Of a stretch of 64,000 bases of DNA, positions 3,036 to 62,681 are shown in pieces; within the stretch, counting starts at the first letter, position 1; every line of letters starts with the position of its first letter. Source of the DNA: Ancrocorticia populi (lineage in GTDB: Bacteria; Actinomycetota; Actinomycetes; Actinomycetales; Actinomycetaceae); the NCBI RefSeq assembly GCF_003123745.1, contig NZ_QETB01000001.1:868001-932000 (forward strand). The letters are read 5' to 3'. A model generated the notes under the pieces. That model saw only the letters and a list, made by a program, of their open reading frames with translations, did not search any database and was not told where the DNA came from. Made by a program: the position numbers and the translations under genes.

Positions 3036-3289
3036 GCTTTACCTTCTCTTCGCTGAGTAGTGAACGCCCTCAACTATACGGGAAATACGCAGTATTCTGC
3101 GGACTGACGGGGTATGTGGCGTCGCTCGCCAGCGCGGGAACAGAGATTTGACGCAATCCCGATTTTCTAAGGAACCGGACCCTGCTGTATACGTCCAAAG
3201 GCGGCAAGGTAACACCAACAAGCCGAGTGGGCGACACGCCGCCGCCACATAGGCGGCCGCTACCCAGATGCAGGGAACCATTAGAAGCG
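3036..3289. other. Divergent nagB / perM-like intergenic region
   Basis: This 254-bp gap separates divergent genes and must hold both promoters. The only recognisable element is one copy of the dispersed TTTGACGCAA repeat core at 3147-3162. The open frames that cross it look like shadows with no family resemblance. I see no clear operator. Confidence 0.6.
3145..3170 (+). repeat. Dispersed TTGACGCAAA repeat, diverged copy
   Basis: AGATTTGACGCAATCCCGA matches the core shared with copies at 34089, 34150, 34180, 52306 and 57161. The part after the core is diverged (ATCCCG instead of AATTCGGG), and the GACGACGACG tract is absent here. Confidence 0.5.
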
Positions 3290-5016: not shown

Positions 5017-5107
5017 ACTGACTCTGGCCGCAACTGGCGTAGAAGATGGATACCATCGGGGAGCGGCATAACGAGCAAGCCGCGCGCCTGGGCATGAAAG
5101 GTAGATC

Positions 5108-6565
5108 ATGCCAAAGGCACTCGTTTCCGTATATGACAAGACCGGCCTAGAAGAACTTGCTGTTGGCCTGAACTCCGCCGGATGGGACATCATCTCCACC
5201 GGCTCCACGGCAAAGACGATCTCCACCGCGGGCGTACCTGTGACCCCAGTTGAGGATGTTACCGGCTTCCCTGAGTGTTTCGAGGGCCGCGTTAAGACCC
5301 TTCACCCCAAGATTCACGGCGGTATCCTCGCTAAGCGGGCCGAGCACGCGGATCAGATGGCAGAACTCGGGATTGAACCCATCGATCTTGTGATCGTGAA
5401 CCTCTATCCTTTCGAAGAAACGGTGGCTTCGGGGGCATCGCGAGCCGAGTGCATTGAGCAGATCGATATTGGCGGCCCGGCGATGGTTCGTGCGGCGGCG
5501 AAAAATCATGCGAGTGTTGCCGTCGTCGTTAATCCAAATCAGTACCCTGAGATTCTGGAAGCGGTAGCGGGGTCTGGATTCACGGACGAACTCCGAAGCG
5601 AGCTGGCCGCGAAGGCGTTCGCGCACACCGCGGCGTATGACATGGTGGTGGCCGGTTGGATGAGCGAACCGCTGCGATACGGCGAGAATCCCCACCAGGG
5701 TGCCGGTGTGTACTCCACGGGGAGCGCGGGCTTGGCCAACGCCACGCAGTTCGGCGGCAAGGAAATGAGCTTTAACAATTATCAAGACACGGATGCGGCG
5801 ATTCGCGCGGCGTGGGATCACGAGGATCCTTGCGTGGCCGTGATTAAACACGCCAATCCGTGCGGCGTGGCGATCGGGAGCGATATTGCCGAAGCCCACC
5901 GCAAGGCTCACGCGTGCGATCCCGTGTCCGCATATGGCGGTGTTATCGCCACGAACCGTGAGGTGAGCCTTGAGCTTGCCCAGCAGGTTAAGCCGATCTT
6001 CACCGAGGTGATCGCGGCACCGTCTTTCGATCCGGAGGCGCTCGCCCTCCTTCAGACCAAGAAGAATCTGCGTATCCTACAGGTGGAGAATCAGCAGGCG
6101 GCCTTTGACTACAAGCCGATTTCTGGCGGCATGCTGGTCCAAGAACGCGATACGTTGCAGGCCGCGGGCGATGACCCGGCAAACTGGACGCTCGCGGTTG
6201 GGGAGCCGGCCGATGAGGCCACCCTCGCAGATCTTGAGTTTGCGTGGCGGACCGTGCGCGCCGTGAAGTCCAACGCCATCCTGCTGGCCCACGACGGGGC
6301 AACCGTTGGCGTTGGTATGGGGCAAGTGAACCGGGTGGATTCGTGCCACTTGGCCGTGGACAGGGCAGGGGACCGGGCGCCGGGGAGTGTGGCCGCATCA
6401 GACGCGTTCTTCCCGTTTGCTGATGGATTCGAGGTGCTGGCGCAGGCCGGGATCCGCGCTGTAGTGCAACCCGGTGGGTCAATCCGCGACTCCGAGGTTA
6501 TTCAGGCCGCGCAGGCGGCTGGCATCACGATGTACCTGACGGGTTCGCGCCACTTCTTCCACTGA
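5108..6565 (+). CDS. purH: Bifunctional AICAR transformylase / IMP cyclohydrolase
   Basis: Catalyses the last two steps of IMP synthesis. The N-terminal cyclohydrolase domain (from about residue 1, [15 protein letters not shown], with STGSTAKTI) precedes the transformylase domain with [16 protein letters not shown] and [20 protein letters not shown]. At 485 residues it is about 40 shorter than the E. coli enzyme but has all the motifs and the family's C-terminal end ([10 protein letters not shown]). The ATG follows a GAAAGGTAG ribosome-binding site. The 91-bp gap from purN contains no gene. Together with purN this is a short purine cluster. Confidence 0.95.
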
Positions 6566-20580: not shown

Positions 20581-20625
20581 GAGAACCGGGTGTGCCACTT
20601 GGGTGGTGCGCCCGGTTCTTCTATT
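20581..20625 (+). terminator. Rho-independent terminator after mdh
   Basis: GAACCGGG at 20583-20590 pairs with CCCGGTTC at 20611-20618, with extra inner pairs, and is followed by TTCTATTTTT. This is the clearest classical terminator in the first half of the window. Confidence 0.85.
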
Positions 20626-20640
20626 TTTGCCGACGACGAC

Positions 20641-20712
20641 GTTCAACATTCACCTTGTCGTTCCGCTCGAGGGATATAACCAACATGCTGAGCTACAAGG
20701 TGAATGTTGAAC
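20641..20712. repeat. Perfect 18-bp inverted repeat with 36-bp spacer
   Basis: GTTCAACATTCACCTTGT at 20641-20658 is exactly complementary to 20695-20712. The left arm directly abuts a GACGACGAC tract that also appears in the dispersed repeat family. It lies after the mdh terminator and 155 bp before birA, in no gene. It could be a large RNA hairpin, a paired operator or the ends of a decayed small element. It shares the string TTCACC-TTG with the inverted repeat after deoC (50882-50942). Confidence 0.85.
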
Positions 20713-20866: not shown

Positions 20867-21619
20867 ATGGACTGGTCTCTCACCAGCGCGCAGGCGGCGG
20901 TGTTCCTCCACACGGAGTCCACCGGCTCCACACAGGACGATCTGGCTGCACTGTGGCAGCAGACGCCAACCTTCACCGTACTCGTTGCAGATGATCAAAC
21001 GGCGGGCCGGGGCCGCGTTGGCCGCCTCTGGCACTCGGAGCCTGACAACTCGCTCCTCGTCTCCGTGCTGGTGTCGCTTCCGGCAGCTCTGCGCGATCAC
21101 CTGCATTGGCTCACGCTGATCGGTGGGGCCGCCGCCCGTGCCGCCATCGGCAGCGAGCGGGTGGGTTTGAAGTGGCCAAATGACGTCGTCGTCGATAATA
21201 AAAAACTCGGTGGAGTTATCGGCGAATACTGCGGCGAAGCGGACGCACTTCTCACCGCAGTACTCGGGCTGGGACTCAACCTTTCAATCACGGATTTTCC
21301 AACTCCGACCGCGGCGTCCCTTGCCTCGGCCGGGCTGCCCGTCCCAAGCCGGGACGAACTTGCCGCCGCGTGGATCGCGGGCCTACGGGAGCGAATCGCC
21401 GCATTCGAAGCGGCAAACGGCGATCCGGAAGCATCAGGCGTACTGGCCGAAATCAACAGACATTGTGACACGCTGCGCCCCGGAATCATGGTGGGACGTC
21501 CCGACAATTCTCCCGTGTACGGGACCGGGCGCGCAGTTCTTGCGGACGGATCTCTGGAGGTGGCCACGGATAGCGGCCTCGTCACGGTGACCGCCGGCGA
21601 AGTCTCACTCTTCAACTAA
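20867..21619 (+). CDS. birA: Biotin-[acetyl-CoA carboxylase] ligase, group I (no HTH)
   Basis: Attaches biotin to the carboxylase carrier domain encoded next door. The 250 residues contain GRGRVGR (biotinyl-AMP loop) and KWPNDVVVDNKKLGGVI, followed by a small C-terminal domain. The catalytic domain begins at residue 10 or so, with no N-terminal helix-turn-helix, so it is an enzyme and not a biotin repressor. I use the ATG at 20867 with AGAGGTGG just upstream; a GTG at 20861 is in frame but sits inside that ribosome-binding site. It leads the birA-accBC-accD-fas run. Confidence 0.92.
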   Translation: MDWSLTSAQAAVFLHTESTGSTQDDLAALWQQTPTFTVLVADDQTAGRGRVGRLWHSEPDNSLLVSVLVSLPAALRDHLHWLTLIGGAAARAAIGSERVGLKWPNDVVVDNKKLGGVIGEYCGEADALLTAVLGLGLNLSITDFPTPTAASLASAGLPVPSRDELAAAWIAGLRERIAAFEAANGDPEASGVLAEINRHCDTLRPGIMVGRPDNSPVYGTGRAVLADGSLEVATDSGLVTVTAGEVSLFN

Positions 21620-25022: not shown

Positions 25023-28000
25023 ATGATTACGCACGAAATTAACTCTGGGACTCCCTGGATCGTACAATTTGCGGGCCAGTCTTCACCTTGGCGCCGCGAG
25101 CTCGGCGAATTGACCGGTGCAGCCGGAGAAATCCGCCAGCAGCTGGTACAGATTGATGGTCAGGCTGAGGAGCTTCTTGCCCCCGTCCTGCCCGAACTGA
25201 CTGTTATCAGCGCGGGCCGCCTCGGATTGACAGATAACCCGGCCACCGCAGAGGGCCCCGCCAGCGAAGCCTCCGCAACTGGTGCAACCACCGCGACGGG
25301 CGCTTTTGCCTCCGTTCCCGGTATTCTCTTGGCCCAGTATGGGGCTTGGCTGGACGTTTCGCGAGTAGTGACGGCAACCCCGCACGCCGTGATCGGTCAC
25401 TCCCAAGGAGTGCTCGCCGCGGCCATGATCGAGTCCGATCAGCCAGCCTCGGTGCTGGCCCTTGCCCGCCTCATCGGTGCGGCCGCTACCAAGGCCACCC
25501 GAGCCTCCGGCGCCGAGCGCGGTGAAAACTCCGCCATGCTCTCCGTACGTGGCGTCCCGCGCGATATTTTGGCAGAGCTCGCTCAGTCAGTAGACGCGGA
25601 CCTCGCGATCGTCAACTCTTACAACTCGCTCGTGGTTTCGGGCCGGCCCGCTGATTTGGCGCGCCTGACAGGCAAACTGGATTCGGTTGCCGAAGAGTCC
25701 GCCGCAATCCGCGCCGCCAAGAAGACCGGGGGCGCCCCGATCACTCCCGTTGCTGAGTTCCTTGACGTGGACGCCCCGTTCCATTCCCACCTGCTGGAGC
25801 CCGCTGTGGCTATGGTGGACGATTGGGCAGAGCGCTGCGGCATCTCTGTGGAGAATGCCGATAAGCTGGCACGCGCCGTCCTGACCGATTCGCTCGATTG
25901 GGCAGGCGAAGTTGCCGAAACAGTAGAGGACTTCGGCCGCGGCTACGTGGTGGATCTTGGTCCGGGTAACCTCCAGCGTCTGACCACCGAAAACCTTGCT
26001 GGCACCGGCATCACCTACGTGGACGCAGGAATCGCCGCAGCACGTGACGAGTTCATCTCCGGCGGGCCGCGCATGGTGCGCGCCGAAGACTGGTCGGTTT
26101 ACGCTCCCGAGCTCGCCACAGTGGCGGGCCACCGGGTGCTTCAAACTGCGTTCTCCCGCCTCACGGGCCGTTCGCCCATCATCCTGGGTGGCATGACCCC
26201 CACAACCGTGGACCCGGAGATCGTGGCCGCCGCGGCCAACGCCGGGCACTGGGTGGAGCTTGCCGGTGGCGGTCAGGTAACCGAAGAGGTCCTGTCCATG
26301 CACCTCGTTGACCTACGAAAGATGCTGGAGCCGGGACGCACTGCCCAGTTCAACGCGATGTTCTTGGATCGCTACCTGTGGGATCTGCAGTTCGGTGCCC
26401 GCCGCCTGGTTTCGCGCGAGCGCGCTGCTGGAGCCCCTCTTGACGGCGTGACCATCTCCGCCGGTATCCCGGACCTCGAGGAGGCTGTTGAGCTCATTGA
26501 GCGCCTGCGCGGCGAAGGCTTCCCTTATCTGGGCTTCAAGCCGGGCACGGTGGATCAAATCCGCCAGGTCCTCGCGATCGCCCGTGTAACTGAGGGGATG
26601 CCCCTCATTATTCAGGTGGAGGACGGCCACGCCGGAGGCCACCACTCGTGGGTGGATCTCAACGATATGCTTCTGGCCACCTACCGCGAGATCCGCGAGG
26701 CTGGCGTGATCCTCACCGTCGGTGGCGGCATGGGCGTTCCCGAGCGCGCGGCCGCTTACCTGACGGGTGAATGGTCTCGTCAGTGGGGCCGCCCGCCCAT
26801 GCCCGTGGATGCCGTGTTCATCGGGACCGTTGGCATGACGGCTTTGGAGGCCAAGACCAACCGCGACGTCAAGGAGCTTCTTGTTGCCACGCCGGGCGTT
26901 GCTGCCGAGGACAAGGGCGGCTGGATCGCCAGCGGTGCCGTTCGCGGTGGAGTCACTTCCGGTTTGTCCCAGCTTCGCGCCGATATTTACCAGGTGGAGA
27001 ACTCCTCCTCGGCCGCCGGACGTTTGTTGGTTGAGGTTGATGGCGATGAAGAAGCTATCGCCGCCCGCCGGGATGAAATCATCGAGGCGATCAACAAAAC
27101 CAGTAAGCCCTACTTTGGCGATCTCGAGGCCATGACGTACGCGCAGGTTGTGCGCCGCTACACCGAGTTGTCCTATCCGTGGACCGACGACGGTCTGGTC
27201 ACCCGCCTCTTTGAGATGCTCCAGAGGTTTGAGGCTCGCCTCAGCCCGGCCGATCACGGGGAGATCGCGACGATCTTCGCCGATCAGGAGGCCGTGCGTG
27301 ATCCTCACGCAGCCATCGATGCTCTTGTTGCTTCCTACCCGAACGCAGAGACCACTCTCGTGACCGCGGTGGATGCAGCTTGGTTCCTCTCGCTGTGCCT
27401 GAAGTTCCCGAAGCCCGTTCCGTTTGTCTCGAACATTGGTAAGGATGTACTGCAGCGCTGGGGTAGCGATTCACTATGGCAGTCCCATGATTCGCGCTAC
27501 AGCGCCGATGAGGTCAGCATTATTCCCGGCCCCACTTCGGTTGCAGGCATTACGTCTGTGGACGAGCCGATTGCGGACATTCTGGCGCGCTACGAGGATT
27601 ACACCGTCGGGCTGCTCGACGGACCGGCGCCCGAGCTGTTCTCGAGGCAGGCGGCCGAACGCGACGAGTACCTGCGGACCGTTCCCTACGTCATGTGGCA
27701 CGGACAGCTGGCCGAGAACCCGGCCGCTCTCGTGGAAGAAGTGGAAATCCGCGAGTTGGAGGCCGGCCTTGAGCTGCGCGTTCCGCTCGATACCTTCTGG
27801 GACGGAACCAATGCCGTCCAGCACGCGGTGCGCGAGTTGATTATCCCGATCACCCTGCCCGAATCCGTACACAACGGTGGGCTTCCGGTGGTGGACGATG
27901 CCCGCTTGGCAGATGACATGCGCAAGATGCTTGCAGTCACCGCCGGTGTAGGCACCACGACGATCGGTGGAACTCCCATCGAATCCCTCCCCGAGTTCGT

Positions 28001-31000
28001 GGATGGGGAAGCACACTTTACCTTCGCCGTTTCTCCCGAGATCGGGTCCCTGCACGCAGGTGTAACGGCACCGGGTTCTACCAAAGTGGCGCCCTCCTCG
28101 ATCCTCGGATCGTGCTGGCCAACCATCTACGCCGCTATCGGCTCTGGCTGGGCGAACGATTACCCCGTCATTGAGGGCCTGCTCTCGGCAGTCCACCTTG
28201 ATCACTCGGAGAACCTTCACGAGTCCATCGAAGAGATTCTGCGCGAGGGCGAACTGACCTCGCACTCGCACTGCGCGAGCATCGAGGAGTCTTCGGCCGG
28301 CCGCGTGGTGACTATCAAGACCCGTGTGACCAGTGCCGATTCGGTGGTTATCGAATTCGTGGACCGTTTCGCTATGCGTGGCCGCGTCACCACCACCGAT
28401 TTGCCGGCCGATCCGGCCGCCCGTGGTGGGCACGTGGGAGAGGTTGTTGATACGCCTCGCTCTACCCTCAATAAGATCACGGTGACCGCACCGGAGAACA
28501 TGACGGCATTCGCCATTGTCTCGGGAGATTTCAACCCGATCCATACCTCCACTCGCGCCGCGAAGATGTCCGGTATGGACGCAGCCCTTGTACACGGCAT
28601 GTGGCTGTGCGCCGCCGCCCAGCACGCGGTTCCGGATCTGGAGCTTACGGGCTGGACCTACCGTATGTTCGGCATGGTCAACCTGTCCGATGACGTGGAG
28701 ATCACGGTGGAGCGTGTTGGACGCATCCGCGGTGGCGGGCTGGCACTCGAGGTCACCTGCCGCATCGAGGGCGAGGTTGTGGCGCAGGCCAGTGCCTCTG
28801 CCGCTGCGTCCTCAACCGCGTACGTGTACCCCGGTCAGGGCATTCAGGCGGCTGGCATGGCGCTGGACGAGCGGGCCGATTCGCCCGCCGCCCGCGATGT
28901 GTGGGAGCGCGCGGACAGCCACACCCGTGAGAACCTTGGTTTCTCCATCCTCGCGGTGGTACGGGATAACCCGAAGTCTGTTACGGCAAAGGGTGTCACG
29001 TACTTCCATCCAGAGGGCATTTTGAACCTCACCCAGTTCACTCAGGTAGCACTTGCTACCGTTGCGATCGCTCAGACTGAGCGCTTGCGGGAACAGGGCG
29101 CGCTGGTTGATGGTGCTGCGTTTGCTGGCCATTCGCTCGGCGAATACACGGCGCTCTCTGCCTACGGCCAGATCTTCACACTGGAGAACGTGCTGGAGAT
29201 CGTGTTCCAGCGCGGTTCCACTATGCACCATCTGGTTCCCCGCGATAGCGAGGGCCGCTCCAACTACCAGCTCGGAGCCTTGCGCCCGAACCAGTTTGGA
29301 GTGGACGATTCCGGCGTGCTCGATTACATCGCCGAGGTCTCCAAGACGTCTGGCGAGTTCCTTGAGGTTGTGAACCTCAACCTTGCGGGTCAGCAGTACG
29401 CTGTTGCTGGAACCATCGCCGGGCTCAAGGCGCTCGGGGCCGATTCGGCTCGCCGCGCCGCAGCCTACGGCGGCAAGCGTCCGTTCATGCTCATCCCTGG
29501 TATCGATGTTCCTTTCCACTCTTCGGTTCTACGCGATGGCGTGCCGGACTTCCGCCAGCTCCTTAAGGGCCTGCTGCCCGAAGATGTCCGGCTGGACACC
29601 CTCGTGGGTCACTACGTCCCGAACCTCGTGGCGCGCCCGTTCGAGCTCACAACCGATTTTATGGATGCGATCCTCGAGGTTGTGCCCTCGGATTCAGTTG
29701 CACACCTGCGTGATCACTTCGATGAGGTTATGGCCAACCCTGGTGTGGTAGCCCGCGAGCTCCTCGTGGAGTTGCTCGCTTGGCAGTTCGCTTCACCGGT
29801 CCGCTGGATCGAGACACAGAAGGCGATCCTCGATGCCGGTATCCAAGAGATTGTGGAGATCGGCTTGGCGGCATCGCCAACCCTCGCGAACCTCGCGACG
29901 AAGACTCTGGCTCTCCCGGAGAACGCCGGCGCCGACGTGACGGTGTTCAACGTCCAGCGCGATGCCAAGCGCGTCCTGCACGAAGATGTTGCCAAGGTGG
30001 CCGCGCCTGAAGTGGCAGCTCCTGAGACTGCTGCCCCTGAGGCGGCACCGGCACCGGTTGAAGAGTCCGCTCCTGCGGAATCGATGACATCCCCGGCACG
30101 CCCACCGGCACAGTCCGCTGTTCCGGCCGGCAATTCGGGGCCCGTTGCCGATCTTCCGTTCCGTGCTGGCGACGCCCTTCGGATGCTGCTTGCTCAACAG
30201 ACGAAGGTTCGCGTGGATCAGATCGTGGACGGCGATACGGTGGAGACACTGACCAACGGCGTGTCCTCCAAGCGGAACCAAATCCTCATGGACATGACGG
30301 CCGAGTTCGAGCTGTCCGCACTGGACGGTGCGGCTGAGGCAACGCTCTCCACGCTGGTTCCCACGATCAACTCGCAGGCTCACGGCTACACGCCGTTCGG
30401 TCCAGTGCTGTCCGAGGTGTTCAATGAACGCCTTCGCGCCATCACGGGTGCGGCTGGCGCTAAGCCCGCCCGCATCAACGATCGAGTCTCCACGGTGTGG
30501 CAGCTCGGTGAGGGTTGGGGAGCCTACGTACGCGCCACCGTCGTGTTGGGAACCCGCGAGGGCAAGTCTCTGCGCGGCGGTGAGCTCGCAACGCTCGCCA
30601 CCCCGAAGAACGGCGCCGAACTCGATTCGGTTATCGATGCGGCCGTTGCAGAGGTAGCTGCGGCCTTCGGTGTGTCCGTCTCCATCCCGAGCGCCGGAGG
30701 CGCCGGCGGGGCAGTGGTTGATTCGGCCGCGCTTGACGCGTTCTCCGAGGAGATCACGGACGTATTAGCCGATACGGCCTACGAGCTCCTTGCCAAGCTG
30801 GGCAAGAAGCCAGAAGCCGCCGAATCAGAGGACAATTCTGCTGAGCTCGCACTTCGCGAGGCCATGACAGCCGAACTCGGTAATGGCTGGGAGAAGTTCG
30901 TGACACCCGGCTTCGATGCTCGCCGCACGGTTCGCCTGTGCGATCGCTGGGCAACTGCCCGCGAGGACGTTGCGCGCATCGCCGCCGGTTACCCGGTAGA

Positions 31001-33962
31001 GGCAAACTTCCGCGGTGTGGGTGAAGAGGTGGCGCGTCAGGCCGAATGGCAGAACGCGCGCCAGAACAACCCGCGCTTTGCGGAGATCGCTGCCGCGGCT
31101 CGTGATACCACCCCGGGCGAATTTGAGGGCCAGGTTGCCGTCATCACCGGAGTGACCCCGAATTCGATCGCTGGTGCCGCGGCCGGGCAGTTCCTTGCGG
31201 GCGGAGCAACCGTCATCATGACGGCCTCCCACATCAACACGGCGCGGCTCTCCTTCGCAAAGGAGCTGTACCGCACCAACGCCACCGGATCGGCCGAGCT
31301 GTGGCTGGTTCCCGCCAACCTCGCGAGCTTCCGCGATATCGATTCGCTCATCGAGTGGATCGGAAACGAGCAGCGCGAAACCGTTGGAGCAACGTCCAAG
31401 CTGATCAAGCCTGCGCTGACCCCCGATATCCTCCTGCCGTTCGCCGCACCCGGCGTGCGCGGATCGCTCGTGGATTCTGGCTACGAAACCGAGAATCAGG
31501 CCCGCGTGCTCCTATGGGGCGTTGAGCGCTTGCTCGGCGGACTTTCCGCCGTGGGCGGCGAAACGAACGTTGATCACCGCCTCCACACCATCCTCCCGGG
31601 CTCCCCGAATCGTGGAACCTTCGGTGGGGACGGCGCATACGGCGAGGTCAAGGCCGCATTCGATGCGATCTGCAACAAGTGGAGCTCCGAGCCGTGGGGG
31701 GCCAACACCTCCATTGCGCACGCGAAGATCGGCTGGGTCCGGGGCACGGGCCTCATGGGCCACAACGATCCTCTCGTCTCAGCCGTCGAGGCCGCTGGCG
31801 TTCACACCTGGTCCACCGCGGAAATGGGAGAGCAGCTTGCTCGCCTCGCGTCCGCGCAAACCCGTGCCGAAGCTGCGAACGGCCCCGTAGAAGCCGATCT
31901 CACAGGCGGCTTGGACAAGGTGGATTTGAAGGCGCTGGAGGCCTCGCTTCCGTCGTCGTCGGTAGAAAATGAATCCGAGCCCGCCATCAAGGCACTGCCC
32001 ACCCCAGAAACTGTTTCTCAGGTTGGTGCGGATAGTGCCGACTGGAGTGGCGTGACCGCCCGGCCTGAGGATCTCGTAGTCATGGTGGGCGTGGGCGAGG
32101 TTGGCCCGTGGGGCTCCTCGCGTACCCGCCTACAGGCCGAACTGGGCATCACGGATGACGGCGATGTGGAGCTAACCGCCGCCGGCGTCCTTGAGCTTGC
32201 CTGGATGATGGGCCTGCTGCAGTGGCACGAGACCCCGCAGCCCGGTTGGTATGACCAGGACGAGAAGTTCGTGGACGAGGCCGAGATCTGGGAGCGTTTC
32301 CGCGATCAGGTTGTGGCACGTTCGGGTGTTCGCGCCTTCGTGGACGACGGCGTGCTTGCCGATCTTGGCACTGTTGACGTGGCTCCGGTTCGGCTCGAGT
32401 CCGATGTGACCTTCGCGGTTGCGGACGAGGCTGCCGCCAAGGCGCACGTTGAGGCCGATCCTGAAGGAACCTCCGCCGCGTTTGTGGACGAGGAGTGGCA
32501 GGTGACCCGCAAAGCGGGATCGCTCACCTACGTGCCGCGGCGCACCACTCTTTCGCGTACCGTTGGCGGCCAGTTCCCCACCGATTTCGATCCGTCGCAC
32601 TGGGGCATCCCGGCGTCCATGACCGAATCGATGGACCGCATGGCCATTTGGAACCTGCTCACTGCGGTGGACGCGTTCGTGGCCTCCGGCTTCACGCCGG
32701 GCGAGCTTCTGGCGAACCTGCATCCGGCCGAGGTGGCCTCCACGCAGGGCACCGGTTTTGGTGGCATGACCTCCATGCACCGCCTGTACGTGGACCGCTT
32801 CAAGGGCGACGATTACCCGCAGGACATCCTGCAGGAGACCCTGCCCAACGTGGTGGCGGCACACACGATGCAGAGCTACATCGGCGGCTATGGTTCCATG
32901 ATTCACCCGGTAGGGGCCTGCGCCACCGCCGCGGTGTCCGTGGAAGAGGGCGTTGATAAGATCACCGCTGGCAAGGCGACCTTCGTGGTGGCCGGCGCCA
33001 TCGACGATCTCCAGATCGAATCCCTCATCGGATTTGGGGACATGAACGCCACCGCTAATTCGCAGGCGATGCGCGACAAGGGGATCTCCGAGCGTTTCTT
33101 CTCGCGGGCCGGCGACATTCGCCGTGGAGGCTTCGTGGAGAGCCAGGGCGGCGGAACTATCCTGCTGGCGCGCGGCGATCTGGCTCAAGAGCTGGGGCTG
33201 CCCGTGCTTGGCGTAGTTGGATTCGTGCAGTCCTTCGCGGACGGCATCCACACCTCGATTCCGGCTCCCGGGCTTGGGGCGTTGGCCGCTGGACGCGGCG
33301 GGAAGAACTCGCGGTTGGCGCGCAACCTTCAGGCGATGGGTGTCGAGGCGGACGATATCAAGGTGCTGTCCAAACACGATACGTCCACCAACGCGAACGA
33401 TCCGAACGAGGCCGAGCTGCACATGCGGCTGGCAAACGCCCTCGGGCGCTCCGAGGGTAACCCGCTGTATGTCATCTCCCAGAAGACCCTGACCGGGCAC
33501 TCGAAGGGTGGCGCGGCTCTGTTCCAGATGTCCGGGCTCACCCAAGTGTTTGCCAACTCCACGGTTCCCGGCAACAAGTCGCTTGACTGCCTGGATCCCG
33601 AGTTCGCCAGCGATTCCTTCCTCGTGTGGCCGCGCAAGCCAATCGAGGTGGGCACCGTCAAGGCGGCGTTGTTGACCTCGCTCGGCTTCGGGCACGTCTC
33701 CGCCATCGTGGCGCTGGTTCACCCAGGTGCTTTCGAACAAGCCGTAGCGAATGCCTCCGGGCAGGAAGCGGCCGGTGAGTGGCGCTCACGGGCCAGTGAA
33801 CGGTTGGCCAGCGGTCACCGCCAGTTGGCCAAGGGAATGATCGGGCACGCGCCTCTATTCGAAGAGGCCGGTGGGCGCCGGTTCGATGGCGACGCCCACG
33901 AGCAAGAGGCCGCCATGCTTCTTGATCTGGATTCTCGTCTAGGAGAGAGCGGCGTGTACTAA
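25023..33962 (+). CDS. fas: Type I fatty-acid synthase, multifunctional
   Basis: A 2979-residue de novo fatty-acid synthase. Domains, with active-site residues read from the sequence, are: acetyltransferase (GHSQG, S127); FMN enoyl reductase (about 380-820, LGGMTPTTVDP); a central part ending in a MaoC-like dehydratase (GDFNPIH, H1174); malonyl/palmitoyl transferase (GHSLG, S1371); an Ala/Pro/Glu linker (about 1659-1690); acyl carrier (NGVSSKRNQ, probable phosphopantetheine site S1748); ketoreductase (VITGVTPNSIAG near 2040, Y2206 and K2210); ketosynthase (C2633, H2785, H2826). The order is that of mycobacterial/corynebacterial FAS I. No phosphopantetheinyl transferase is fused at the C-terminus or encoded next door. 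Confidence 0.97.
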   Translation: MITHEINSGTPWIVQFAGQSSPWRRELGELTGAAGEIRQQLVQIDGQAEELLAPVLPELTVISAGRLGLTDNPATAEGPASEASATGATTATGAFASVPGILLAQYGAWLDVSRVVTATPHAVIGHSQGVLAAAMIESDQPASVLALARLIGAAATKATRASGAERGENSAMLSVRGVPRDILAELAQSVDADLAIVNSYNSLVVSGRPADLARLTGKLDSVAEESAAIRAAKKTGGAPITPVAEFLDVDAPFHSHLLEPAVAMVDDWAERCGISVENADKLARAVLTDSLDWAGEVAETVEDFGRGYVVDLGPGNLQRLTTENLAGTGITYVDAGIAAARDEFISGGPRMVRAEDWSVYAPELATVAGHRVLQTAFSRLTGRSPIILGGMTPTTVDPEIVAAAANAGHWVELAGGGQVTEEVLSMHLVDLRKMLEPGRTAQFNAMFLDRYLWDLQFGARRLVSRERAAGAPLDGVTISAGIPDLEEAVELIERLRGEGFPYLGFKPGTVDQIRQVLAIARVTEGMPLIIQVEDGHAGGHHSWVDLNDMLLATYREIREAGVILTVGGGMGVPERAAAYLTGEWSRQWGRPPMPVDAVFIGTVGMTALEAKTNRDVKELLVATPGVAAEDKGGWIASGAVRGGVTSGLSQLRADIYQVENSSSAAGRLLVEVDGDEEAIAARRDEIIEAINKTSKPYFGDLEAMTYAQVVRRYTELSYPWTDDGLVTRLFEMLQRFEARLSPADHGEIATIFADQEAVRDPHAAIDALVASYPNAETTLVTAVDAAWFLSLCLKFPKPVPFVSNIGKDVLQRWGSDSLWQSHDSRYSADEVSIIPGPTSVAGITSVDEPIADILARYEDYTVGLLDGPAPELFSRQAAERDEYLRTVPYVMWHGQLAENPAALVEEVEIRELEAGLELRVPLDTFWDGTNAVQHAVRELIIPITLPESVHNGGLPVVDDARLADDMRKMLAVTAGVGTTTIGGTPIESLPEFVDGEAHFTFAVSPEIGSLHAGVTAPGSTKVAPSSILGSCWPTIYAAIGSGWANDYPVIEGLLSAVHLDHSENLHESIEEILREGELTSHSHCASIEESSAGRVVTIKTRVTSADSVVIEFVDRFAMRGRVTTTDLPADPAARGGHVGEVVDTPRSTLNKITVTAPENMTAFAIVSGDFNPIHTSTRAAKMSGMDAALVHGMWLCAAAQHAVPDLELTGWTYRMFGMVNLSDDVEITVERVGRIRGGGLALEVTCRIEGEVVAQASASAAASSTAYVYPGQGIQAAGMALDERADSPAARDVWERADSHTRENLGFSILAVVRDNPKSVTAKGVTYFHPEGILNLTQFTQVALATVAIAQTERLREQGALVDGAAFAGHSLGEYTALSAYGQIFTLENVLEIVFQRGSTMHHLVPRDSEGRSNYQLGALRPNQFGVDDSGVLDYIAEVSKTSGEFLEVVNLNLAGQQYAVAGTIAGLKALGADSARRAAAYGGKRPFMLIPGIDVPFHSSVLRDGVPDFRQLLKGLLPEDVRLDTLVGHYVPNLVARPFELTTDFMDAILEVVPSDSVAHLRDHFDEVMANPGVVARELLVELLAWQFASPVRWIETQKAILDAGIQEIVEIGLAASPTLANLATKTLALPENAGADVTVFNVQRDAKRVLHEDVAKVAAPEVAAPETAAPEAAPAPVEESAPAESMTSPARPPAQSAVPAGNSGPVADLPFRAGDALRMLLAQQTKVRVDQIVDGDTVETLTNGVSSKRNQILMDMTAEFELSALDGAAEATLSTLVPTINSQAHGYTPFGPVLSEVFNERLRAITGAAGAKPARINDRVSTVWQLGEGWGAYVRATVVLGTREGKSLRGGELATLATPKNGAELDSVIDAAVAEVAAAFGVSVSIPSAGGAGGAVVDSAALDAFSEEITDVLADTAYELLAKLGKKPEAAESEDNSAELALREAMTAELGNGWEKFVTPGFDARRTVRLCDRWATAREDVARIAAGYPVEANFRGVGEEVARQAEWQNARQNNPRFAEIAAAARDTTPGEFEGQVAVITGVTPNSIAGAAAGQFLAGGATVIMTASHINTARLSFAKELYRTNATGSAELWLVPANLASFRDIDSLIEWIGNEQRETVGATSKLIKPALTPDILLPFAAPGVRGSLVDSGYETENQARVLLWGVERLLGGLSAVGGETNVDHRLHTILPGSPNRGTFGGDGAYGEVKAAFDAICNKWSSEPWGANTSIAHAKIGWVRGTGLMGHNDPLVSAVEAAGVHTWSTAEMGEQLARLASAQTRAEAANGPVEADLTGGLDKVDLKALEASLPSSSVENESEPAIKALPTPETVSQVGADSADWSGVTARPEDLVVMVGVGEVGPWGSSRTRLQAELGITDDGDVELTAAGVLELAWMMGLLQWHETPQPGWYDQDEKFVDEAEIWERFRDQVVARSGVRAFVDDGVLADLGTVDVAPVRLESDVTFAVADEAAAKAHVEADPEGTSAAFVDEEWQVTRKAGSLTYVPRRTTLSRTVGGQFPTDFDPSHWGIPASMTESMDRMAIWNLLTAVDAFVASGFTPGELLANLHPAEVASTQGTGFGGMTSMHRLYVDRFKGDDYPQDILQETLPNVVAAHTMQSYIGGYGSMIHPVGACATAAVSVEEGVDKITAGKATFVVAGAIDDLQIESLIGFGDMNATANSQAMRDKGISERFFSRAGDIRRGGFVESQGGGTILLARGDLAQELGLPVLGVVGFVQSFADGIHTSIPAPGLGALAAGRGGKNSRLARNLQAMGVEADDIKVLSKHDTSTNANDPNEAELHMRLANALGRSEGNPLYVISQKTLTGHSKGGAALFQMSGLTQVFANSTVPGNKSLDCLDPEFASDSFLVWPRKPIEVGTVKAALLTSLGFGHVSAIVALVHPGAFEQAVANASGQEAAGEWRSRASERLASGHRQLAKGMIGHAPLFEEAGGRRFDGDAHEQEAAMLLDLDSRLGESGVY

Positions 33963-34088: not shown

Positions 34089-34137
34089 GCAGGCTTGACG
34101 CAAAATTCGGGAAGGACGACGACGAAGCCGCGCCTCC
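34089..34137 (+). repeat. Dispersed repeat, full copy
   Basis: GCAGGCTTGACGCAAAATTC, then GGGAAG, then GACGACGACGAAGCC. It is the most complete copy of the family, with both the TTGACGCAAA core and the GAC tract. Its closest match is the inverted copy at 57161-57197. Confidence 0.75.
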
Positions 34138-34149
34138 GCATTCAGTTAC

Positions 34150-34168
34150 GCAGGCTTGACGCAAACTG
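34150..34168 (+). repeat. Dispersed repeat, short copy
   Basis: GCAGGCTTGACGCAAACTG. The first 16 bases match the other two copies in this gap; it then diverges. Confidence 0.65.
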
Positions 34169-34179
34169 GCTGTTGCTTC

Positions 34180-34206
34180 TGCAGGTTTGACGCAAAATTC
34201 GGGAGG
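34180..34206 (+). repeat. Dispersed repeat, copy without GAC tract
   Basis: GCAGGTTTGACGCAAAATTC followed by GGGAGG. It ends 8 nt before the stop codon of the ArsR-like gene. Confidence 0.7.
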
Positions 34207-52295: not shown

Positions 52296-52305
52296 ACCCA
52301 CCTTC

Positions 52306-52389
52306 CCGGGTTTGCGTCAGATCTCTAGTTTTGAGTGGTTGGCAGGTGGGGAGGTTTCGTCGTCGTCGGAAGAATAACTGCGACGAAAC
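52306..52389 (-). repeat. Dispersed repeat, split inverted copy
   Basis: Read on the minus strand it has GACGACGACGAAACC (around 52354-52369), then about 30 bp, then TCTGACGCAAACCCGGGAAG (52303-52322). Both parts of the family are present in swapped order. GTTTCGTCG (52355-52363) also pairs with CGACGAAAC (52381-52389) as a hairpin. It lies between convergent genes. Confidence 0.65.
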
Positions 52390-57160: not shown

Positions 57161-57197
57161 GCTCCGTCGTCGTCCTCAATTTTGCGTCAAACCTCGG
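57161..57197 (-). repeat. Dispersed repeat, full inverted copy
   Basis: On the minus strand: AGGTTTGACGCAAAATTGAG, then GACGACGACGGAGCC. It matches the copy at 34089-34137 over both parts with few changes and sits between two convergent genes. Confidence 0.75.
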
Positions 57198-57221: not shown

Positions 57222-57240
57222 ATCTCGCGTCAAATCTATA
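57222..57240 (-). repeat. Dispersed repeat, diverged inverted copy
   Basis: On the minus strand: ATAGATTTGACGCGAGATG. It shares AGATTTGACGC with the copy at 3145 and is 25 bp from the full copy. Confidence 0.45.
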
Positions 57241-62635: not shown

Positions 62636-62681
62636 TTCGTCGTCGTCGGAAAAACATTGGGAACGACGACGGAGCCGCACC
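62636..62681. repeat. GAC/GTC-tract hairpin, dispersed-repeat relative
   Basis: TTCGTCGTCGTCGG (62636-62649) faces GGGAACGACGACGGAGCCGC (62659-62678). The right arm matches the second half of the full repeat copies (GACGACG-AGCC), so this looks like two inverted half-copies that can fold on each other. The TTGACGCAAA core is absent. Confidence 0.6.

Follow-up and report, generated by a model that had tools for sequence, protein, structure and literature searches.

Motif A of Ancrocorticia populi: lineage-restricted DNA words in phased intergenic arrays as putative protein-binding sites at gene borders

We found that the gaps between the genes of Ancrocorticia populi carry many copies of a DNA word, motif A (consensus CC.GAGATTTGACGCAAWCYCGGGg), which is one of two motif families behind the dispersed intergenic repeat described in an initial annotation. 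Motif A is restricted to this lineage and recurs in phased, head-to-tail arrays, and we consider the chances about even that its copies are double-stranded binding sites of an oligomerising, sequence-specific lineage protein at gene borders. The second family, motif B (TTCGTCGTCGTCGGNAAAA), is the 'GAC tract' of that annotation; a G-rich sequence precedes the core. Our analysis covered the window, that is, the whole stretch of 64,000 nucleotides (G000:C1:868001-932000, where G000 stands for its own genome), and the 2.65 Mb genome of 8 contigs to which it belongs.

Copies and anatomy of motif A

With up to three mismatches, AGATTTGACGCAANNCCGGG (motif A) was found at 71 places genome-wide (40 and 31 on the two strands), compared with 2 for the reversed control, and a second genome-wide pattern search gave 59 places compared with 1 in the control. 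For motif B, TTCGTCGTCGTCGGNAAAA with up to three mismatches gave 160 places and its control 1. The genome-wide count that had been named as a check on the initial annotation therefore came out far above chance for both motifs, and a chance origin was rejected. A motif A profile built from 45 of the 71 pattern sites identified 91 copies above 13 bits in 825 kb of sampled sequence and none in the reversed sequence; the 91 include these 45 sites, and the sampled stretches, 31% of the genome, were chosen partly around motif hits. Because the motif A profiles were built from copies of this genome, the counts within it arise partly by construction, and the informative side of the profile results is the empty controls and the empty other genomes. 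Because the profile scan also returned weak copies that the genome-wide patterns do not list, the genome total of motif A is probably above 86. The 11-mer core alone stays at chance level in the window, with 11 matches at up to two mismatches compared with a shuffle mean of 11.4.

Re-reading the sequences of the window confirmed the copies at the places where they had been annotated, with one exception. An array of three motif A copies on the plus strand begins at 34091..34110 with a copy that has a variant right arm (AGGCTTGACGCAAAATTCGG; direct repeat D7), precedes copy 2 by 61 bp and, falling below the profile cut-off, is absent from the motif A counts. Copy 2 (34152..34171; AGGCTTGACGCAAACTGGCT; profile score 15.1) has a weak right arm and is followed after 31 bp, on the same strand, by copy 3 (34183..34202; AGGTTTGACGCAAAATTCGG; score 13.6), and a motif B copy, read directly, lies on the minus strand between copies 1 and 2 (34114..34126; TTCGTCGTCGTCC). 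Strong motif A copies are located at 3144..3163 on the plus strand in a divergent gap (AGATTTGACGCAATCCCGAT; G000:C1:871144, 2 mismatches; score 34.4) and at 52305..52324 on the minus strand in a convergent gap, 9 bp past a methyltransferase gene identified by Pfam (AGATCTGACGCAAACCCGGG; G000:C1:920305, 1 mismatch; score 37.1); the latter gap also contains motif B at 52356..52374 on the plus strand (TTCGTCGTCGTCGGAAGAA; G000:C1:920356, 1 mismatch). In the convergent gap between the DUF3117 and O-methyltransferase genes (Pfam), a minus-strand motif A copy (57175..57194; AGGTTTGACGCAAAATTGAG; score 19.7; E = 0.0096) is overlapped at its end by a motif B copy on the opposite strand (57163..57181; TCCGTCGTCGTCCTCAATT; profile 14.5). 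The annotated copy at 57222 is only a weak half-match (57222-57234; TTTGACGCGAG).

Across the 86 intergenic copies of the profile scan, the consensus extends to W.CC.GAGATTTGACGCAAWCYCGGGgT and conservation spans ~28 bp, beyond which the 10 bp of 3′ flank are alike between copies at chance level (0.28-0.30). Positions 5-11 (TGACGCA) are variant in 1-5 of the 86 copies and the remaining positions of the 20-mer in 7-45, and constraint this uneven fits a recognised word, not copies that decayed uniformly from one master. The segment with the strongest conservation is asymmetric, while the arms on either side of TGACGC make up a weak dyad with a geometry of ~11 + 6 + 11 bp and the best conservation in the centre: 62.6% of cells are paired in register compared with at most 46.1% when the arms are slid by 1-3 columns. 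No covariation was detected between the arm pairs (62.6% paired versus 62.3% after shuffling; score 0.114 versus 0.111), one of the eleven arm pairs that we scripted lay above most shuffles (7 of 500 reached its value), and RNAalifold predicted no structure for the motif A alignment. In the alignment columns of the 86 copies, a GTAG or CGTC tag is absent from either end.

Placement, spacing and lineage restriction of motif A

In the 825 kb sampled, 86 of the 91 motif A copies are intergenic, and two of the five copies in called genes stop 4 and 20 bp short of the end of an opposite-strand gene. One exact copy (G000:C1:374365-374384) falls within a called gene (749 aa), in what seems to be a proline/alanine-rich part. 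The 58 gaps that hold the intergenic copies were classified as 21 convergent, 28 tandem and 7 divergent, with 2 left unclassified (a gap lying at a stretch edge and a very long gap), compared with 6.3, 33.8 and 15.8 expected (chi-square p ~2e-9, a value that ignores the error of its baseline of 230 sampled gaps of 40-700 bp). Motif A is over-represented in convergent gaps and sparse in divergent ones; the annotated location 'mostly between convergent gene ends' was too strong for 21 of 58 gaps but right in pointing to an excess. In the 28 tandem gaps, motif A lies at a median of 36.5 bp from the upstream 3′ end versus 128 bp from the next start (p = 0.0004), although all distances and gap types are approximate because gene calling relied on a simple script for codon usage rather than on a standard gene finder. 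Relative to transcription in these gaps, 14 copies are sense and 14 antisense.

Next to dense motif A arrays, 8 of 115 neighbours were identified, namely S9, L27, ObgE, GlmM, LipA, IspF, a LacI-type regulator and a distant xylulokinase match, and the neighbours of motif A gaps in the window are, according to Pfam, methyltransferases, a phosphohexomutase, DUF3117, DUF6350, a glucosamine-isomerase family protein and an ArsR-like regulator. Because these identified neighbours are functionally unrelated, no regulon is apparent so far, although one may lie hidden among the other 107 neighbour proteins. The motif A gaps are distributed unevenly over the contigs, which are unordered (Monte Carlo p = 0.011), and the 390 kb contig with a dif-like site contains 2 of them compared with 8.5 expected. 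This site (G000:C3:53123-53144) has 1 mismatch to what we take to be the dif pattern; GC skew changes sign near it (C3:53.1 kb), and dnaA is located at C1:31.8 kb. With the contigs unordered, a bias away from the terminus, as in macrodomain sites, is only suggestive.

Two to four motif A copies are present in 21 of the 58 gaps, giving 28 neighbour pairs within one gap, 25 on the same strand and 3 on opposite strands. The same-strand neighbours are mostly 30-32 bp (19 pairs) or 40-43 bp (4 pairs) apart, roughly three or four helical turns, and the other two are 139 and 216 bp apart. A scan of the flanks of 55 strong copies, in which a pair of strong copies is counted twice, placed 25 of 34 same-strand offsets scoring >6 at 30-32 bp, and the opposite-strand offsets were four and scattered. 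In a test of low power (23 pairs), neighbours did not significantly exceed copies from different gaps in similarity, either at the variable core positions (0.663 versus 0.622, p = 0.15) or in the 10 bp flank (0.304 versus 0.283, p = 0.53), and the spacing is therefore hard to ascribe to recent tandem duplication. The exceptions are two of the 23 close pairs with alike spacers (0.8-0.9 identity), for which the arrays resemble tandem duplications; most of the spacing seems maintained rather than freshly duplicated. A further three-copy array is located at C1:1056238-1056319. At G000:C1:632268-632402, four copies alternate between two sequence types, GGCTTGACGCAAAC and GGAGTTGACGCAATC, which looks like the doubling of a ~72-bp unit of two copies.

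With up to two mismatches, motif A occurs at 48 places in this genome, and of 98 relatives 94 are without it and 4 have one place each. A profile of 30 positions (R1, from 73 own copies) found 61 places here and 0 in 78 other genomes at E <= 0.01; all 61 are among the copies of the earlier profile scan, and the stricter filters of this search lose weak matches. The looser exact pattern AGATYTGACGCAAWCYCGGG had 0 matches in the collections genome_contigs and viral_contigs, from which records very near the window are possibly left out. The relatives searched contained no second genome of the same genus.

Motif B and its relation to motif A

The annotated GAC/GTC tracts are present at 34114 on the minus strand and at 52356, 57163 and 62636 on the plus strand. 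The last (62636..62654; TTCGTCGTCGTCGGAAAAA; G000:C1:930636, 0 mismatches) matches the motif B consensus exactly, is followed by an inverted partner (GAACGACGACGG) and lies in the divergent gap between the aminopeptidase P and periplasmic binding protein genes. Three further copies in the window are a minus-strand copy new to the list in the gap before a biotin-ligase gene (20625..20643; AACGTCGTCGTCGGCAAAA; G000:C1:888625, 2 mismatches) and two plus-strand copies within genes. The first of these two, in the biotin/lipoate-ligase gene (21182..21200; GACGTCGTCGTCGATAATA; G000:C1:889182; Pfam BPL_LplA_LipB), reads DVVVDNK and comes after WPN in a stretch that we take to be conserved in biotin ligases, so the word may have pulled the residues of the ligase. 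The other, in the type I fatty acid synthase gene (31949..31967; TCCGTCGTCGTCGGTAGAA; G000:C1:899949, 2 mismatches), reads LPSSSVE. The reading frame of this synthase spans 25023-33962 on the plus strand (2979 residues); its C-terminus has its best named relatives in Actinotignum and Ancrocorticia (72-73% identity), two genera of the Actinomycetaceae, the family in which this match places the genome, and relatives with 50-52% identity come from two metagenome records that carry the labels Myxococcales and Deltaproteobacteria.

The TT that precedes motif B and the AAAA that follows it are conserved. From a 541 kb spread sample, consisting of 60 hand-placed, roughly even stretches plus the window, which had been picked for the finding, we extrapolated a genome content of ~150-260 copies, using profile cut-offs of 18 and 14. 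Within this sample, 34 of 53 copies scoring >14 lie in genes; an equal distribution inside genes, which the initial annotation had named as refuting it, is not seen for motif A, while motif B does have many genic copies. Depending on gene and strand, the word is translated as DDD, VVV, SSSS or RRR. In 481 kb of called genes, CGTCGTCGTCG occurs 32 times compared with 1.6 (range 0-5) in 20 synonymous-codon shuffles, and the counts of seven other trinucleotide words are within their shuffle ranges. Inside genes, motif B is a DNA-level word.

The 19-mer of motif B, with up to two mismatches, was found at 69 places here and at 0-11 in each of 58 other genomes; CGTCGTCGTCNNNAAAA has 64 places in this genome, and among 120 further genomes of the family 87 lack it and no genome exceeds 9. 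Some genomes of the genera g17, g18, g24, g26 and g32 (e.g. G109, G133, G053) contain up to 9 exact B-like words, which may reflect a weak shared habit or codon bias. Motif B might, unrelated to motif A, be a trinucleotide microsatellite or a by-product of codon or amino-acid preference, and the location of about two thirds of its copies in genes, as DDD, VVV or SSSS, together with relatives that have up to 9 places, or up to 11 by another pattern, would fit such an origin. The excess over synonymous shuffles, the conserved flanking TT and AAAA, and the 64 places against at most 9 per family genome make us regard it as unlikely.

In gaps, motif B forms five inverted pairs, 62-66 bp apart with their A-runs outward, and some copies follow hairpins that, judged by eye, are terminator-like. 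Inverted pairs were seen at G000:C4:148141 and G000:C1:1060421, the second of which flanks a strong hairpin on both sides. The initial annotation had joined both motifs as two blocks of one repeat, but in the sampled stretches 38 of 55 motif A gaps are without motif B and 40 of 57 motif B gaps without motif A; we therefore rejected a two-block repeat in favour of two families with separate genome-wide distributions. The families do meet more often than expected, as 17 of 55 motif A gaps hold motif B compared with 40 of 326 other gaps (p = 0.0008), a test that leans conservative because gaps with motif B were over-sampled among those without motif A; in the spread sample alone, the difference (2 of 7 versus 21 of 223, p = 0.15) is not significant. 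In 6 close pairs on the same strand, the B-A offset is -26 to -31, and of the 10 intergenic pairs lying within 45 bp of each other, 9 have the A-run of motif B facing motif A.

Alternative explanations and comparison with known systems

Sites spaced three or four turns apart along one helix face are classically indicative of a protein on double-stranded DNA. Of the options raised in the initial annotation, a protein binding site is the best supported, by the helical-turn spacing, the lack of preference for either strand of transcription, the use of all gap types and the absence of stem covariation. We propose that a sequence-specific protein would bind motif A as double-stranded DNA and oligomerise along it with a three-turn pitch (~31 bp), its sites lying just beyond gene ends, where they would favour post-stop and convergent space and avoid the promoter-rich side. 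Motif B, present in genes as well as gaps, would then be another word at the DNA level, tending to accompany motif A at similar spacing, and may be read by a partner protein or by a second DNA-binding face of the same protein. The likeliest role would be architectural, with the bound array marking operon borders as a topological or read-through boundary and not switching particular genes. That both motifs form a two-word lineage code, with motif A at gene borders and motif B in genes and gaps, read by one chromosome-organising protein system that builds a 31-bp oligomer lattice and uses operon ends as topological boundaries, is a speculative extension that we consider doubtful. Lrp-family proteins have same-face sites two or three turns apart (PMC2995911; see also PMC4977709), and motif A shows such in-phase spacing in 19 of 25 same-strand pairs. 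Against a protein array stand the asymmetry of the conserved part, which is unlike a plain dimer operator, the weak outer-arm dyad, which a hairpin would also predict, and the location, which matches that reported for REPs (PMC3733652).

The main rival to such arrays, in our judgement somewhat unlikely, is a REP-like selfish or topological element. Bacterial intergenic repeats are usually attributed to REP-type mobile palindromes. Motif A would have been scattered by a lost or unrecognised transposase and would survive where it is harmless, after genes and off promoters, with protein binding (gyrase, IHF-like) being secondary; binding of REP and BIME by IHF and gyrase is mentioned in PMC2817692. 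The intergenic position of motif A near upstream gene ends and its enrichment in convergent gaps are as reported for REPs in PMC3733652, where CGTC-tagged REPs, too, occur without a dedicated transposase, and its lineage restriction, its dozens of copies and the gaps with two to four of them also fit. The Y1 transposase family (PF01797), the one family searched, however, had 0 matches in this genome with a positive E. coli control, and we rejected a RAYT-driven REP. Among REPs, head-head or tail-tail dimers prevail and head-tail ones are rare (PMC3733652), whereas 25 of 28 motif A pairs are on the same strand; moreover, motif A has no consensus stem, and the likeness of its copies ends with the ~28 bp. 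As for features of MITEs, motif A is without a shared 3′ flank and motif B has the five inverted intergenic pairs. In sum, the annotated REP/MITE-like character holds for the genomic location, extragenic and downstream of genes, and not for a maintained stem, a GTAG or CGTC end tag, head-head or tail-tail dimers, or the RAYT of the GTAG class.

The initial annotation had also considered a structured 3′-end signal, that is, an RNA structure or termination signal with a hairpin around a TGACGC loop. The dyad arms around the conserved hexamer and the proximity to stop codons speak for it, as does the CCCGGG strand, on which the hairpin is best, an A.C mismatch becomes G.U and two positions pair in 71 of 73 copies if G.U is allowed; several motif B copies also follow the terminator-like hairpins seen by eye. 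Three tests, the pair script, RNAalifold and covariation, did not support an RNA hairpin with compensatory changes, and the even split between sense and antisense, the 7 of 58 gaps that are divergent and the absence of a T-run after motif A among the significant logo columns argue against a signal acting on transcripts. Motif A thus has neither the stable hairpin nor the sense-strand T-run of an intrinsic terminator, and no copy in the window matched Rfam 15, whose sole match there is an unrelated ZMP-ZTP riboswitch aptamer (5020-5100, plus strand; RF01750; 53.3 bits) just ahead of the gene at 5108. We consider the annotated 3′-end signal improbable. Less probable still is a site of a tyrosine recombinase. 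Sites of the dif/pdif type have 11-bp arms and a 6-bp centre; the dyad of motif A has nearly this geometry, its centre is conserved as recombination between copies would require, and the genome has six Phage_integrase matches. No motif A copy lies within ~1.5 kb of these six domains (best score -0.3, compared with >13 for counted copies), so a linked recombinase gene is missing, the dif-like site of the genome differs in sequence, and direct copies 31 bp apart would be expected to delete each other.

Motif A thus combines the places of REPs with the traits of a protein array, namely head-to-tail copies on one face, a near-invariant core and no maintained stem. Judged from titles and abstract openings, no paper among the matches listed describes such an element. 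If a protein binds motif A, the genome would already map that protein's sites at operon ends in countable form, and the insulation of neighbouring genes in compact genomes would become testable in a small chromosome. Motif B is of a rarer kind, a DNA word of ~19 bases kept in genes beyond the needs of the protein sequence.

Among known systems, the site families of Noc, SlmA and MatP each consist of a single word repeated tens of times over both strands, with no visible tie to gene function, and motif A shares these properties; it differs in being nearly confined to gaps and forming phased arrays, with a terminus bias that is only suggestive. Operator arrays of the Lrp/AsnC type resemble motif A in their imperfect dyad sites on one helix face at three-turn spacing (PMC2995911), but the published sites are 13-17 bp long, whereas motif A has ~28 bp, lies at gene ends in 58 gaps and shows no regulon so far. 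REP and BIME elements (GTAG, CGTC) are likewise short dispersed words after genes, at tandem and convergent ORFs, clustered and lineage-specific, with some within genes; motif A differs in its head-to-tail order at 31 bp, in a central hexamer that is better conserved than its arms and in having no maintained stem, tag or RAYT. Motif B, with its ~150-260 degenerate copies, is less frequent and looser than the words of DNA uptake sequences, which it resembles in its presence on both strands in genes and gaps, sometimes as inverted pairs in the gaps.
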